The notes under the pieces: model-generated
What the model was told of the DNA's origin: nothing
Seen by the model: the letters and a program-made list of their open reading frames with translations, nothing else
The model's database searches: none
In this document: piece after piece, positions 1 to 14,037 of the stretch
Position numbering within the stretch: the stretch's first letter is position 1
How the letters are laid out: every line of letters starts with the position of its first letter
Position numbers and translations under genes: made by a program
IMG/VR virus record: IMGVR_UViG_3300008262_003928
Coordinates: 1-22,769 of that record
Direction: 5' to 3' (one strand)
DNA: 22,769 nt
Origin: a virus

Positions 1-503
1 ATACTGATACTGTTGACGATGAGCATTCTCCTGTTAACTATGGAAGATGGCATGCTTTTATAGGATGGATACTAGCACACGACCCTACTCAAGTAAATTA
101 CAAATATAGTAAACCTTTATTAAGAGAACCATTAATTGAAAAAACATACAAGCACTATGAAACTATAATTTGGGTAACGTGGTTAATCGCAGGACTAATA
201 AGTGTCGATTTATTATTGTGGATGTTTATTTTACCTGCGTTCGTAGGTATACATTCTGAAGGATTGATAAACGCATTTGGACACAGTGGTTTAGGTTACA
301 AAAATTTCGAATTAACTAACCAATCAACTAACATACCTGTTTTAGGTTTTCTAACATGGGGCAACGGCTGGCACAACAATCATCACGCGAAACCTTCTTC
401 ATATGATTTTGGAAAAGGTATAAGTGGCAGGTTGACAGAATTCGATCCTTGTGTTATATTTTTACCCTTAATAGAGAAACATCATGACAAAATTAATCTA
501 TAA
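1..503 (+). CDS. Fatty acid desaturase, 3' fragment
   Basis: The gene enters from the left edge (first full codon at base 3) and the last 166 residues are present. Seen: an upstream motif of the form D-D-E-H-S-P...GRWHAFIGWI, which matches the segment before the GW motif of membrane delta-9 (stearoyl-CoA/acyl-lipid type) desaturases. A hydrophobic stretch follows at about residues 60-80. Near the C-terminus is the third histidine box, GWHNNHHAKP. Family knowledge: these di-iron membrane enzymes insert a double bond in acyl chains using O2. The first two histidine boxes would lie upstream of the window. The stop overlaps the next gene by 20 bases. Inference: a phage-carried auxiliary gene altering host membrane fluidity during infection. 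A bile-acid or carotenoid-modifying relative of the same fold is less likely given the histidine box. Confidence 0.85.
   Translation, partial: TDTVDDEHSPVNYGRWHAFIGWILAHDPTQVNYKYSKPLLREPLIEKTYKHYETIIWVTWLIAGLISVDLLLWMFILPAFVGIHSEGLINAFGHSGLGYKNFELTNQSTNIPVLGFLTWGNGWHNNHHAKPSSYDFGKGISGRLTEFDPCVIFLPLIEKHHDKINL
432..460 (+). promoter_or_regulatory. Sigma70-type promoter inside the desaturase 3' end
   Basis: TTGACA at 432-437 and TATATT at 455-460 are separated by exactly 17 bases. The predicted start of RNA is near 467, leaving about 17 bases before the ATG at 484. It lies inside coding sequence, so chance cannot be excluded, but spacing and position fit a promoter for the AbrB-like/IF-1 pair. 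Confidence 0.5.
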
Positions 504-657
504 CGTAGAAGACATTTTTGAAGAAATAGACGGAGACCCAGACAACATACTTATGAAAATACCACAAGAAATTTTAGATCACAATGGTTGGAAGGAAGGC
601 GATGTGTTAACTGTTACCATTGAAGACGGTACCATTGTAATCGTTAAGAATGGCTAA
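484..657 (+). CDS. AbrB/MazE-like small DNA-binding protein
   Basis: A 57-residue protein with acidic N-terminus (NVEDIFEEIDGDPDN), followed by a compact beta-rich part: ILMKIPQEI, then GWKEGD at about 35-40, then EDGTIVIVKN at the end. The order 'IP.ei....gw.eGD.l....edg.ivi.k' is the SpoVT/AbrB swapped-hairpin pattern also used by MazE-type antitoxins. Family members bind DNA as dimers and act as transition-state regulators or antitoxins. No toxin gene is adjacent. The start overlaps the desaturase end by 20 bases, and its stop lies inside the start of IF-1 (8-base overlap), so the two are probably translationally coupled. Role in the phage is unknown; a transcription regulator is the most likely reading. 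Confidence 0.65.
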   Translation: MTKLIYNVEDIFEEIDGDPDNILMKIPQEILDHNGWKEGDVLTVTIEDGTIVIVKNG

Positions 658-871
658 AAATACCGAACTAATCGAATTTACCGCAAAGGTAATTGATGTA
701 CTGCCCAACAGTACTTTTAAAGTAAAAGTAGACGATACCAGCCACGAACTAATCTGCTACATGGGCGGCAGGCTCAAACAGCATAAAATTAAAGTAATTC
801 TAGGCGACAATGTTCGAATAGAAGTCAGCCCATACGATTTAACCAAAGGCAGAATCACCTTCAGATTGTAG
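650..871 (+). CDS. infA: Translation initiation factor IF-1
   Basis: 73 residues, the usual IF-1 length (E. coli 72). It follows the family along its whole length: MAK start, 'G/AKVIDVLPNSTFKVKVDD' strands, then MGGRLKQHKIKVILGD (38-53) and the C-terminal signature PYDLTKGRITFR (61-72). The single OB-fold of IF-1 binds the ribosomal A site on the 30S subunit and works with IF-2 and IF-3. Translation factors are rare in phage genomes of ordinary size. The gene overlaps the AbrB-like gene by 8 bases and ends exactly where the next promoter begins. Inference: it supplements or replaces host IF-1 to favour phage mRNAs, possibly those with weak or missing leaders such as uvsE here. Identification is strong; the functional role is a guess. 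Confidence 0.92.
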   Translation: MAKNTELIEFTAKVIDVLPNSTFKVKVDDTSHELICYMGGRLKQHKIKVILGDNVRIEVSPYDLTKGRITFRL

Positions 872-900
872 TTGACATTTAAATTGATTGATAGTATACT
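872..900 (+). promoter_or_regulatory. Strong sigma70-type promoter for the 931 gene
   Basis: TTGACA (872-877) begins on the base after the infA stop; TATACT (895-900) follows after 17 bases. RNA should start near 907. The -10 sits in a 12-base perfect palindrome, ATAGTATACTAT (891-902). The ribosome binding site GGAG is at 922-925, six bases before the ATG at 931. Confidence 0.8.
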
Positions 901-930: not shown

Positions 931-1620
931 ATGGACTTTCCTGTACAAAGAGCATTAGAATTGGCTTGTGCTGCTCAGCGTTACAATCAATGCTATCAAA
1001 AAGAAAGCGAAATATTATACACTGATGATGGGAAAGCTATGGGTTATAAACATAGCAACAAAACACTGATGATTTGGACTTTGGATCAAGAACGGCGAAT
1101 AACTGCTGATCCACAGTACTTGCCTCCTGTAATTGAAGCTAATGACTCCGATCGATTGTTAACAGAAGATATCAGAACGTATTATCGTCGTCTTATGTTT
1201 AGCGTGTTGGCTCAACCTGAAAATCAATTCTTACAAGAGATTTTGAGTTTGCTTAATAAAGAAACAATGAATGAAAATAAACTAGGCTTCATTGCCTGTT
1301 TACCCCATGTTTACGAAAAGGATCGTAAACGTAACGATATTACTAAAATTATTAGAGAGTGTGATAATAACTACTTAGGCAGTAAAGAATCTAAGTTAAT
1401 GAATTTGGAAGCTACTATTGTAGATTGCGAACGTTCGAAGAATTATGATGCTTACAATATTCTTGCCATTGTTGACAATAAGCTGGCCAGCTGGTTTAGC
1501 AAATTTCCAATTAGACAGAATAAAGTAGAGATTGTGTCTGCCAAAGTAAAAGACAACAATCAAAATTGGCTTACTAAAAAAGCAGAAACCAGATTAAATT
1601 ATGTAAAGGTAAAAAAATGA
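931..1620 (+). CDS. Unknown phage protein with a C-terminal OB-like module
   Basis: 229 residues, not identified. The N-terminal half is helical and charged: an ACAAQRYNQCYQKES stretch, a 'GYKHSNKTLMIWTL' strand pair near 40, and a YYRRLMF helix near 85. The last 75 residues read as a beta-rich module: LGSKESKLMNLEATIVDCER, then NILAIVDNKLASWFSK, then VEIVSAKVKDNNQNWLTKKAETRLNYVKV. That order ('l...v.........d..n.l.W........v.....kVK.......T.lnyvkv') is recurrent in phage proteins of unknown function and looks like an OB-type nucleic-acid-binding fold; this is inference. It has its own strong promoter and operator-like dyad, and its stop overlaps the following phosphoesterase start (ATGA). 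Confidence 0.75.
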   Translation: MDFPVQRALELACAAQRYNQCYQKESEILYTDDGKAMGYKHSNKTLMIWTLDQERRITADPQYLPPVIEANDSDRLLTEDIRTYYRRLMFSVLAQPENQFLQEILSLLNKETMNENKLGFIACLPHVYEKDRKRNDITKIIRECDNNYLGSKESKLMNLEATIVDCERSKNYDAYNILAIVDNKLASWFSKFPIRQNKVEIVSAKVKDNNQNWLTKKAETRLNYVKVKK

Positions 1621-3511: not shown

Positions 3512-3748
3512 ATGAAAACATTTGACACATATGAAAAGGTAGCAGGAATGAGTTCATGTATGAAACGTGCTATTATTGTTCATGCTAAACAAATTGACGA
3601 TGAATTTAGAGTTAACACACTAGAAGGTAATTACAAACAAGGTAAGGCAGGTGATTACTTAATGCGTGGCATCGATGGTGAACTTTATATTTGTGATAAA
3701 GATATATTCGAAAAAACTTACGATTTTATGAAGGACGAAAATGCCTAA
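3512..3748 (+). CDS. PGDYG-family small protein
   Basis: 78 residues. The central segment [20 protein letters not shown] followed by FEKTYDFM matches the PGDYG family ('pGDyl..g.dGElY.i....F..tY'), found in bacteria and T4-like phages with unknown function. The ribosome site AAAGGAAAA precedes the ATG. Its stop overlaps the clpP start by 8 bases, so the two are probably translated together. A small regulatory or substrate-related role linked to ClpP is only a contextual guess. Confidence 0.75.
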
Positions 3749-4328
3749 TCTAATACCAATGGTCGTGGAACAAGAAGCACGTGGTGAACGTGCCTACGAC
3801 ATTTACAGCCGTCTATTAAAAGATCGTATTGTGATTTTAGATACCGACGTTAACGAACATAGTGCCAGTATAATTGTAGCACAATTGTTATTTTTAGAAA
3901 GTCAAAGCAATGACGATATTAATTTCTTTATTAATAGTCCTGGCGGAGTCGTTACTGCTGGCATGGCTATCTATGACACTATGCAGTTTATTCGGCCTGA
4001 GGTTTCAACGATTGTTATGGGTCAAGCTTGTAGTATGGGTAGCTTACTTGCTACTAGTGGCGCACCTGGCAAACGTAAGATGCTGCCCAATGCACGTCAT
4101 ATGATCCATCAGCCCTCAGGCGGTGCTCGTGGGCAAGCTACAGACATGCAGATACAAGTTGAAGAAATTCTAAAAATGAAAAAGAGCTTAACTGAAATCT
4201 ATGTTAAGCACAATAGTAAGGGTAAGACTTACGAACAGCTACTTTCGGATATGGAACGTGATAAGTTCATGAGTGCTGAAGAAGCACTAGAATATGGCTT
4301 AATTGACGAAATTATCACTAAAAGATAA
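3741..4328 (+). CDS. clpP: ClpP serine protease
   Basis: 195 residues, the normal size of mature ClpP. The catalytic triad is complete: S98 in [11 protein letters not shown]123 in HMIHQPSGG and D174 in [12 protein letters not shown]. The NSPGG motif at 65-69 and the C-terminal [12 protein letters not shown] are also typical. ClpP forms a tetradecameric chamber that degrades proteins fed by ClpX or ClpA. No Clp ATPase is in the window, so the subunits presumably join host partners. Alternatively it acts as a prohead-type protease, as proposed for some ClpP-like phage enzymes, but the triad and size favour true ClpP. There is no long propeptide. It is the last gene of the 931-4328 run. Confidence 0.93.
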
Positions 4329-4349: not shown

Positions 4350-4386
4350 CGTAGTCTGCTATAAATATGTGTAGGAGCAGACTATG
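4350..4386 (+). promoter_or_regulatory. RBS/start-codon sequestering hairpin around a late promoter
   Basis: TAGTCTGCT (4352-4360) is a perfect complement of AGCAGACTA (4376-4384). The stem extends by G4351-U4385 and C4350-G4386, so the whole AUG is paired, along with the last two bases of the AGGAG site (4373-4377). The late promoter box begins at the last base of the left arm. RNA entering from clpP contains both arms; RNA started at the late promoter (+1 about 4373) lacks the left arm. This matches the known arrangement at the T4 lysozyme gene e. Confidence 0.7.
4360..4367 (+). promoter_or_regulatory. T4-type late promoter
   Basis: An exact TATAAATA octamer, the sequence read by the T4 gp55 sigma factor. 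Placing the last A at -6 puts +1 at 4373, the first base of AGGAG, so the mRNA would have an 11-base leader. No -35 match is seen at the proper distance, as expected for a late promoter. Confidence 0.75.
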
Positions 4387-5106
4387 GCCCGAGAAGTATT
4401 TGATTGGTCCGCACTGGATCGACACACTTTATATAGTATTCTAAATGGCGCCCGAAAATACATTGTCGGGAAGAAACTCTATATTGAAGAAATTCATAAA
4501 ATCCTTTCAAAGCAAGTCAAAGAACATCTTCCAATACGTACTAAATTATTACGCGGTGCTGATCAAGAAGACGGAATTATCTACATCGGTGGCTGCTATT
4601 ATGGCGGCGAAGATGAGCAGAATAAAGATAGATTTATCGAAATAGTTTTTTGTTATTTTATGTGGGATCAATATCTTACTATTTCGGAAAGACGTTGGAA
4701 ACGAATGTGTGAAGTATTTGCTGACACTGTGTTACACGAAATCATTCACATGCGACAGTATAGAACAAGAAATTTTAAAGTTCTTCCCGGATACGAAAGT
4801 ACAGCATATAGTGCCAAATTAAGAAAGAATCAAAATTATTATGGACATCCGGATGAAATCGGTGCTTATGCTTTTAACATTGCCTGCGAAATGCATGATC
4901 GATTTGGTTCTAATAAAAAACTGATTGAAAAATATATGGACAGCAATCACGCCAATCGTCATCGTAGAAGTGGTTATCTAAGATACTTACGAACCTTTGG
5001 ACACGATCATCCTGTAATGAAACGTCTTAAAAGAAAAGTAATGTTTTATCTTCCTTATGCCGAAATTGGTAGGCCATTTAAGACATCAGACTACTTGACA
5101 TACTGA
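4384..5106 (+). CDS. HExxH putative zinc metalloprotease-like protein
   Basis: 240 residues with a clear zincin motif LHEIIHMRQYR: H118, E119 and H122. A downstream acidic residue in GHPDEIGAYA (E158) could be the third zinc ligand. The N-terminal part has a helical DRHTLYSILNGARKYI segment and IIYIGGCYYGG; the C-terminal part is basic (NRHRRSGYLRYLR, MKRLKRKV). No signal peptide or membrane segment is seen. T4-like aquatic phages carry similar unnamed proteins; activity has to be inferred from the motif alone. Late expression, if correct, fits a virion, maturation or lysis role rather than early takeover. Its start is buried in the hairpin at 4350-4386 and its last bases carry the -35 of the ligase promoter. 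Confidence 0.75.
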   Translation: MAREVFDWSALDRHTLYSILNGARKYIVGKKLYIEEIHKILSKQVKEHLPIRTKLLRGADQEDGIIYIGGCYYGGEDEQNKDRFIEIVFCYFMWDQYLTISERRWKRMCEVFADTVLHEIIHMRQYRTRNFKVLPGYESTAYSAKLRKNQNYYGHPDEIGAYAFNIACEMHDRFGSNKKLIEKYMDSNHANRHRRSGYLRYLRTFGHDHPVMKRLKRKVMFYLPYAEIGRPFKTSDYLTY

Positions 5107-6683: not shown

Positions 6684-7355
6684 ATGTTTGTTACAAGTTA
6701 TAGAACTGCTGGTGAAATTAATTCAGCAATGATACGTGTTTATCAAAATATGATGATAGCTGTTTTGATTAGTATGGTTACTAGTTTCATAGTAGGCAAT
6801 ACACCCATGATGATGGCATTGTTTTTCGGAACGCCATTAAAATGGTTGATTATGTTGGCGCCCATTGGATTCATTTTATTTTTTAGTTTTAAAATGGAAG
6901 ACCTTAGTAAAGATACAGCCACAATGTTATTGTGGGTATTTTCTGTATTAATGGGACTAAGTTTCAGTGCTATTTTTGTCGTCTACACCGGTGCTAGTAT
7001 TGTTATGTCATTTATGAGCGCAGCTATACTTTTCGGTTGTATGACCTTTTATGGTTATTTTACAAAACGTAGTTTAGAAAGTTTCGGACAATTTTTGATT
7101 GTAGGACTAATTGCTATCTGTATCGCTAGCATTGTTAATATTTTTGTAGGTAGTAGTGTAATGACCACTGTGATCAGTGCGTTGGCTATCATAATCTTTT
7201 TGGGACTAACTGCATATGATACACAACGTATCCGTGAAATGGTTAGCTATGATAATAATGGTAATGCTGAGGTAGCAGGAGCATTGACTTTGTACTTAAA
7301 TTTCATTAACATATTCCTTAACTTGTTACAACTTTTTGGAAGTAAAAACGAATGA
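6684..7355 (+). CDS. Bax inhibitor-1 family membrane protein (YccA/YbhL-like)
   Basis: 223 residues with about seven membrane helices, roughly 24-40, 52-69, 78-101, 105-126, 134-156, 159-178 and 200-219. The family signature GLTAYDTQRIREM (174-186) follows helix six, with the conserved aspartate and glutamine. The bacterial relatives YccA (a modulator of the FtsH protease) and the YetJ calcium-leak channel belong to the same family. AAGGAG stands seven bases before the ATG. The stop overlaps the next start (ATGA). Inference: in infection it could protect phage membrane proteins from FtsH or alter ion leak and membrane stress. The fold assignment is strong; the role in the phage is not established by the sequence. 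Confidence 0.9.
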   Translation: MFVTSYRTAGEINSAMIRVYQNMMIAVLISMVTSFIVGNTPMMMALFFGTPLKWLIMLAPIGFILFFSFKMEDLSKDTATMLLWVFSVLMGLSFSAIFVVYTGASIVMSFMSAAILFGCMTFYGYFTKRSLESFGQFLIVGLIAICIASIVNIFVGSSVMTTVISALAIIIFLGLTAYDTQRIREMVSYDNNGNAEVAGALTLYLNFINIFLNLLQLFGSKNE

Positions 7356-9986: not shown

Positions 9987-10511
9987 ATGGCAAAATATTA
10001 TTCAACAAAAACATATGGCACTGACAGAGGATTAAGTTGTTGTTTTAGGCAATGGCGTAGCACTCATAGTCATTGCGCATTACTACACGGATACTCGATT
10101 GGTATCAAACTAATTTTTGAATCAGAGACACTAGACGATCGTAATTGGGTCATGGACTTTGGCGGACTCAAAGCGTTCAAAGAATGGAGTGAGTGGCAAT
10201 TTGATCATACACTTTGTGTAGCATTAGATGATCCTCACCTGGAACTTTTTAAACAAATGGCTAAACTAGGCAAACAAGCAGACGGCGGTGTCTGTGATTT
10301 AAGACTAGTAGAAGCCGTTGGTTGCGAAAAGTTTGCTGAATTAACGTATCGTACCATGAATGAAATACTAGAAGCTTATAGGGAAGGCAGAGGATGGACA
10401 CATCCAGATGGTCGTGTATTTGAAGCACGATATCCTGTAGGGCAAGGTGTTAAATTACGTTCAGCAGAAGTATTCGAACACGCTGGTAACTCAGCAATAT
10501 ACGAAGGATAA
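9987..10511 (+). CDS. QueD-like 6-carboxytetrahydropterin synthase / PTPS family
   Basis: 174 residues. The zinc-site region is recognisable: FRQWRSTHSHCALLHGYSIGIKLIFE, with H27/H29 and H34 as probable zinc ligands and C30 nearby. DDRNWVMDFGGLKAFKEW (50-68) is the conserved 'viDf..lk' segment, and QFDHTL (71-76) carries the Asp-His pair of the family. QueD converts dihydroneopterin triphosphate to 6-carboxytetrahydropterin on the path to preQ0, queuosine and the 7-deazaguanine DNA modifications found in phages. No queC, queE or folE is in this window. AAGGAG precedes the ATG by six bases. The N-terminal histidine spacing is unlike classical QueD but matches a phage-type subgroup as I recall it. 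The substrate is therefore less certain than the fold. Confidence 0.85.
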   Translation: MAKYYSTKTYGTDRGLSCCFRQWRSTHSHCALLHGYSIGIKLIFESETLDDRNWVMDFGGLKAFKEWSEWQFDHTLCVALDDPHLELFKQMAKLGKQADGGVCDLRLVEAVGCEKFAELTYRTMNEILEAYREGRGWTHPDGRVFEARYPVGQGVKLRSAEVFEHAGNSAIYEG

Positions 10512-13683: not shown

Positions 13684-14037
13684 ATGGTTAATCTTAGCAA
13701 TAGTGCTATTGAAAAAATTAAAGAATTAATAGAAGAAGAAGGAAATCCTGATTTAAAACTGCGGGTCTTTGTGCAAGGCGGCGGCTGTTCAGGATTCCAA
13801 TACGGATTCACATTCGATGAAGAACAGAACGAAGATGATTTTGATTTTACATTTAACGGTGTAAAAGTAATTATTGACAGTATGAGTAGTCAGTATTTGC
13901 AAAACGCTGAAATAAACTACGTAGAAGATATCACAGGAAGTCAGTTTACAGTTAAAAATCCTGACGCTAAAACTACCTGTGGATGCGGCAGCAGTTTTTC
14001 CGTTGACGAAGAGTTCTACGATAATATCGGAGTATAA
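13684..14037 (+). CDS. ErpA/IscA-type iron-sulfur carrier (HesB family)
   Basis: 117 residues matching A-type carriers along their length: [22 protein letters not shown], then [15 protein letters not shown] with C35, IDSMSSQYL near 65-71, and [10 protein letters not shown] with C99 and C101. These three cysteines hold the Fe-S cluster delivered to target enzymes. The GFQYGFTFD run and the NPxLKLRV start are closer to ErpA than to IscA or SufA. It is the first gene downstream of an exact late promoter and lies 6 bases before the giant fibre gene, so it is apparently made with virion proteins. Inference: it could mature a host or phage Fe-S enzyme late in infection, or place metal in a tail protein; neither is shown. 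Confidence 0.92.

Follow-up and report, generated by a model that had tools for sequence, protein, structure and literature searches.

An IF-1 gene overlapping a gene for an acidic AbrB-fold protein in a lineage of T4-like jumbo phages

In a family of T4-like jumbo phages, the gene for translation initiation factor IF-1 usually starts within the 3' end of a gene for a small, strongly acidic protein of the AbrB/MazE fold. We analyzed a 22,769-base IMG/VR virus record, IMGVR_UViG_3300008262_003928 (the whole stretch is referred to as the window), which carries phage tail genes and is a piece of such a phage. We favor, with moderate confidence, a reading in which the pair provides a phage-specialized initiation factor co-produced with an acidic AbrB-fold accessory protein. 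The lineage is large and clearly bounded, and it combines a conserved overlapping partner, a branch lacking that partner that can serve as a natural control, and specific residue substitutions at the decoding center. It thereby opens a question that can be tested with two small proteins, namely, whether phages build specialized initiation complexes. The acidic partner may help the virus steer host ribosomes. The features around the pair are as follows.

432..460, + strand: sigma-70-like promoter candidate TTGACA-17-TATATT (11/12 matches), upstream of the pair
484..657, + strand: AbrB/MazE-fold protein (by PF04014 and a model), 57 aa, ATG start, net charge -9
650..871, + strand: IF-1 (infA), 73 aa, ATG start, beginning within the 3' end of the AbrB-like gene
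872..900, + strand: second promoter candidate TTGACA-17-TATACT (11/12 matches), between IF-1 and the next gene
931..1620, + strand: 229-aa protein kept near the pair in relatives, with a C-terminal all-strand, OB-like part

A sequence-only reading of this DNA had described a full-length IF-1 with its C-terminal signature, overlapping an AbrB/MazE-type gene by 8 bases, and these points hold. The IF-1 open reading frame (ORF) passes the cut-off of the whole-protein model TIGR00008 for infA (80.4 bits against 61.15) as well as that of PF01176 (69 bits against 30.2), matches solved bacterial IF-1 chains in sequence comparison, and ends PYDLTKGRITFRL. The two ORFs share bases 650-657.

The same reading had proposed a search of viral databases for the gene pair, which turned out to be conserved. 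Among the best 80 of 401 IMG/VR relatives of the window IF-1 (forward scan), a related AbrB-like ORF lies directly upstream in 79 loci. The remaining locus, L041, has a diverged AbrB-like gene, for which the same contig gives a PF04014 match beside IF-1 above the cut-off (29.9 bits), bringing the count of overlapping upstream AbrB-like genes to 80/80. Counting the window, the distinct pairs in this set number 55 and the distinct IF-1s 50, with overlaps of 8, 4, 1, or 11 bases. For the reverse scan, an alignment of ten AbrB-like proteins was searched against IMG/VR, and in all 80 loci surveyed out of 175 confirmed relatives, IF-1 is directly downstream and overlapping, by 4 bases in 42 loci, 8 in 27, 1 in 10, and 43 in a single case that is probably due to an ambiguous start. 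The two scans have many contigs in common. Across eight locus pairs, dN/dS was 0.02-0.07 in IF-1 and 0.04-0.26 in its AbrB-like neighbor, which shows strong purifying selection on both genes in the pairs compared. Since the arrangement recurs in every locus of two scans and both genes are under purifying selection in these pairs, it is not a product of chance.

Neutral hitchhiking, in which common descent within a single phage lineage is all that keeps the two genes adjacent and the AbrB-like protein has no tie to IF-1, is an unlikely account of this pattern. Other local genes are conserved as well, and the upstream partner has been swapped in one branch; against it, the overlap is kept throughout both scans, the first of which includes 55 distinct pairs with the window counted, while the outer genes vary. 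The 229-aa protein lies downstream in 59/62 distinct loci with the AbrB-like gene versus 0/14 without it, in a count for which two more loci end too near for the upstream side to be judged and the unpaired loci have a flank of only about 2 kb. Its model is confident (AlphaFold pLDDT, 92.2), and its best fold matches are uncharacterized phage proteins; 25 of 33 members of its family match phrog_2319. It gave no Pfam match at the cut-off, no NCBIfam match, and nothing in the PDB with an E-value of 0.001 or better. Most paired loci have one ORF of about 220 aa between IF-1 and the 229-aa protein, with an HExxH-like motif in the examples read. Small HExxH-like proteins of several kinds occur around IF-1 (for example, L034 4222-4884, L241 1553-2014, and window 4384-5106), with motifs such as HELRHQ, HEMVHVKQ, and HEIIHMRQ and no Pfam match above the cut-off.

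Pairing has a boundary within the wider IF-1 family. A third scan, with the diverged L041 IF-1 as the query, covered 80 of 131 relatives and found the AbrB-like gene at 45 loci and none at 35, among which the IF-1 ORF takes 13 distinct forms. The upstream neighbor in 11 of the 13 is a small HExxH protein whose gene shares about 14 bases with the start of IF-1, and other genes lie upstream of IF-1 in the unpaired L245 and L262 groups. The two genes are therefore not an obligate module, since a related branch retains IF-1 without the AbrB-like gene. The gene is likewise missing from all of the best 80 bacterial IF-1 loci and from the six phage-collection loci examined (L089 to L094, out of 36 records with an IF-1 match). 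One of these six, L090 (CAKLQH020000005, "Acinetobacter phage MD-2021a"), carries ansA, truA, infA, leuB, and leuD and resembles bacterial chromosome; an IF-1 match in a record of this kind may therefore not come from a phage. Cyanophages have AbrB-fold proteins that match by profile (L095 and L096; 39.6 and 38.8 bits) and have a core charge of -12, with no IF-1 inside their 6-kb loci; likewise, the 36 phage records that match IF-1 include no cyanophage. Given the unpaired IF-1 branch and these acidic proteins without a visible IF-1, the two proteins are separable, and the cyanophage cases suggest that IF-1 is not the sole target of the acidic AbrB-fold family.

Neither of the outcomes that the sequence-only reading had named as refuting, an unconserved pair or a bacterial origin of the contig, occurred. 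The possibility that the window is a bacterial chromosome fragment was rejected, as it is a virus record with tail genes whose long relatives carry the T4-type capsid protein Gp23. Although no capsid gene was recognized among the scanned proteins of the 22.8-kb window, a Gp23-type capsid is present in 5 of 10 related contigs, including all five longer than 180 kb. Each of the ten contigs searched has exactly one IF-1, and ribosomal protein bS21 is encoded in 5 of 9, among them the three contigs that exceed 350 kb. In eight of nine contigs, PF04014 matches nothing but the AbrB-like gene linked to IF-1, and the ninth has one more, weak match. A metallophosphatase gene at 1617-2422 of the window is split over two frames with residues missing between the pieces, whereas its relatives are one ORF; an internal deletion or an assembly error could explain this. 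The window also contains several host-like genes, identified by profile matches.

3741-4328: ClpP
6684-7355: Bax1-I-type membrane protein
9987-10511: PTPS-family protein
13684-14037: ErpA-type Fe-S protein

The sequence-only reading had also called for a phylogeny of the IF-1 against host clades. Our tree included 80 IF-1s over 72 columns, with bacterial rows picked for their closeness to the query, and it places the paired and unpaired phage IF-1s of the window's type in one clade (100/100) with a stem of 1.2, beside IF-1s of Nevskiaceae (99/94) and Burkholderiales (96/91). Within this clade, the three unpaired IF-1s are nested inside the paired ones at 94/84 (not starred). This nesting suggests an old pair whose AbrB-like partner was lost or replaced once. 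The IF-1s of Lak-C1, Phosso, DAC16, LR756508, and LR756511 fall elsewhere, outside the window's clade, which makes it probable that phages acquired IF-1 on more than one occasion. A recent pickup of a host gene is not supported, given that the closest bacterial IF-1 among the best 80 matches listed is 57% identical, although there may be closer ones beyond these 80, and the stem of the phage clade is long.

Choosing bacterial rows for closeness weakens any inference of a host from this tree. Independently of it, ErpA gives a hint of a Burkholderiales-side host: in a comparison with 16 genomes, one of which had no match, the window protein is 60-69% identical to ErpA of seven Burkholderiales genomes, 57% to Stagnimonas, 55% to Acinetobacter, and 36-46% to six Alphaproteobacteria. 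ClpP was uninformative as a host marker, with best matches of 53-63% in 15 of the 16 genomes and none in one. Judged from these comparisons, the lineage probably infects Burkholderiales or related bacteria.

The assignment of the upstream protein to an AbrB/MazE type stands in part. The ORF passes the PF04014 MazE_antitoxin cut-off (30.0 bits against 24.7) and is predicted to have an AbrB-like fold, but it misses the cut-off of the NCBIfam AbrB domain model TIGR01439 (22.1 against 28.3), and its core is acidic. The AlphaFold model (pLDDT, 91.9) superposes on the AbrB N-domain with Z scores of 5.7-6.0, middling values in that they are under 8, and an rmsd of 1.9 over 49 residues. The best Foldseek E-value for the single-chain model is 0.057, and the 17 structural matches shown comprise AbrB, MazE, SpoVT, VapB, and similar small DNA-binding folds. 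A single-sequence PDB search gave no true match, and in a PDB profile search, AbrB appeared at an E-value of 0.014, after an unrelated human protein at 0.0018.

DNA-binding regulators of the AbrB type are expected to have a neutral-to-basic DNA-binding hairpin, which is not what we found in the phage proteins. The cores of 53 distinct phage AbrB-like proteins have net charges of -10 to -5 (mean, -8.1), and those of 27 bacterial AbrB/MazE proteins (from 27 of 28 loci) range from -2 to +4 (mean, +1.3), with no overlap between the two sets. The basic loop K-G-Q-x-T-x-P, which is present in many of the bacterial cores compared, is missing from the phage protein. The strongly acidic core and missing loop make a role as a DNA-binding transcription factor unlikely, and the transcription half of the combined takeover module that had been proposed for this pair is thus not borne out; takeover of translation by the phage is still a plausible proposal. 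The AbrB/MazE scaffold has probably lost DNA binding here, and the protein more likely binds a basic partner than DNA. IF-1, which is basic and encoded by the overlapping gene, is a candidate for that partner.

These charges also bear on an antitoxin-like explanation, in which the acidic protein would bind the basic 30S-binding face of IF-1 and would keep the factor inactive, escort it, or set its dose. The pair would then be an antitoxin-like regulator and its target, much as MazE acts on MazF. The gene order and overlap resemble those of antitoxin-toxin operons, antitoxins are among the structural matches of the AbrB/MazE-fold model, and whole-protein charges are opposite, with a mean of -7.7 and a pI of 4.2 for the partner (n = 53) and +3.1 and a pI of 9.2 for IF-1 (n = 50). 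However, IF-1 persists without the partner in the sub-lineage nested among paired rows, acidic AbrB-fold proteins occur in cyanophages where no IF-1 was seen, PADLOC returned no match, and no MazF/PemK-type toxin gene was recognized beside the AbrB-like gene, whose neighbors are a desaturase fragment, IF-1, and the 229-aa protein. We regard this explanation as improbable. The narrower proposal that the AbrB-fold protein is a dedicated, co-translated IF-1 partner holding its RNA-binding face, through which the phage times or doses its specialized IF-1, whose 30S-facing helix is unlike that of the host factor, is quite doubtful; were it true, an AbrB/MazE scaffold would have been turned from DNA or toxin binding into an antitoxin-like switch on an initiation factor.

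The phage IF-1 preserves the charge, though not always the identity, of its charged contacts with the 30S subunit. In the available text of a study of Clostridioides difficile IF1 (PMC10913371), K39 and M42 are placed at G530, R41 and R46 at A1492/A1493, and H35, Y60, R64, and R66 at S12. We transferred these positions through an alignment to a solved IF-1 chain, for which the chain index is the paper's number plus 3 by our own count. By this mapping, K39, R41, R46, Y60, R64, and R66 correspond to R41, K43, K48, Y62, K66, and R68 of the window protein, so that six basic or tyrosine contacts with the 530 loop, h44, and S12 keep their charge or identity. H35 corresponds to Y37 and M42 to Q44; with the exception of H35, basic contacts stay basic. 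Compared with a bacterial reference of 64 IF-1s, one of them from the mislabeled record L090, leucine replaces methionine at 42 and lysine replaces arginine at 43 in 100% of the paired phage IF-1s, glutamine replaces lysine at 44 in 94%, and lysine replaces arginine at 48 in 81%. These fixed or nearly fixed changes lie in the helix facing A1492/A1493. The phage IF-1 is thus probably a working 30S binder, whose handling of the decoding center may deviate slightly from that of host IF-1.

Selection on the phage IF-1 may concern something other than translation, because the factor is also an RNA chaperone and antiterminator: according to the available text of a review (PMC3017892), E. coli IF1 has both activities and can replace cold shock proteins in Bacillus subtilis. 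An IF-1 serving mainly as a cold-shock-like RNA chaperone or antiterminator for phage transcripts, rather than as an initiation factor, would accord with lineage-specific changes in the 30S-facing helix. However, a pure chaperone might not need the six retained 30S contacts, and bS21 co-occurs in 5 of 9 contigs. We consider this explanation distinctly unlikely.

The promoter candidate noted in the sequence-only reading is present, with TTGACA at 432-437 and TATATT at 455-460, and it lies within the end of a partial desaturase ORF. Promoter-like sites are not special in this region in general, as positions 1-1700 contain eight sites with at least 9/12 matches against 6.7 expected from shuffles; the two candidates listed above, one before the pair and one behind IF-1, are the only 11/12 sites there. 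The pair could therefore be a single short transcription unit. In the close relative L002, a site with 11/12 matches is spaced identically relative to the start codon. Sites scoring at least 9.5 occur in 13/53 distinct upstream regions, versus 4.4% of shuffles, and a conserved promoter as a general feature of the module is not supported at this frequency. In part of the lineage, a short box, GTAAATAC, directly precedes the start codon of the AbrB-like gene; it is a possible promoter or operator element.

L022 3826, L032 3814, L042 3813, L049 3821, L075 3822, and others: box GTAAATAC before the AbrB-like gene

In L043, L049, and L075, the same box stands ahead of an ATG on the other strand, at a distance of about 1.2 kb. 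A DNA-binding AbrB-type regulator of its own operon or of host promoters, paired with a translation factor in a combined takeover, is very unlikely, as the PF04014 match, AbrB-like fold, promoter candidate, and box directly before the start codon in several relatives are outweighed by the non-overlapping core charges, the missed NCBIfam AbrB cut-off, and the absence of the box from the + strand of the window and from many relatives.

Under the reading that we prefer, a phage-specialized initiation factor made with an acidic accessory protein, a T4-like jumbo phage lineage would have captured a host-type infA and kept it as a phage initiation factor. The phage IF-1 would bind the A site of host 30S subunits during infection, adding to or replacing host IF-1, and together with the phage bS21 of several of the same genomes, it could favor or sustain initiation on phage mRNA. 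Through the gene overlap, IF-1 would be translationally coupled to the AbrB-fold protein, with both made together. The AbrB-fold protein would most likely not be a DNA-binding repressor but a dimer whose acidic character suits it to a basic partner, either a host target or IF-1 itself.

That phages can encode IF-1 is already known, whereas its pairing with an AbrB-fold gene was not found in the literature searched. Huge phages encode IF1, IF3, and ribosomal proteins, and their IF-1 has been suggested to intercept the translation of the host and redirect it (Al-Shayeb et al. 2020, PMC7162821). As in the window's lineage, IF-1 occurs there in genomes of hundreds of kilobases; however, IF1 is named without an AbrB partner, and the term AbrB occurs 0 times in the available text of that paper. 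Of the five phages above whose IF-1s lie outside the window's clade, none has an AbrB-like gene at the IF-1 locus (0/5). In Jug phages, with genomes of 360-402 kb, the available text of a preprint (PMC12363816) gives "translation initiation factor 1A" as a conserved single-copy core gene. By this description they resemble the window's lineage, and they differ in being gut phages of Bacteroides or Phocaeicola for which that text describes no such pair. The bS21 of freshwater huge phages (PMC9723584) is a phage-made component of translation initiation that also occurs in the contigs studied here, but it is a ribosomal protein, and IF-1, IF1, infA, and AbrB appear 0 times in the available text. 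The AbrB-fold proteins of T4-like cyanophages belong by profile to the same family as the window protein, which matches PHROG 661, and are equally acidic; unlike in the window, no IF-1 adjoins their genes in the 6-kb loci. In MazEF operons, a gene for an AbrB/MazE-fold protein comes first, with a second small gene close behind. The window has the same order, with an AbrB/MazE-fold gene leading, but the second gene encodes IF-1 instead of MazF.
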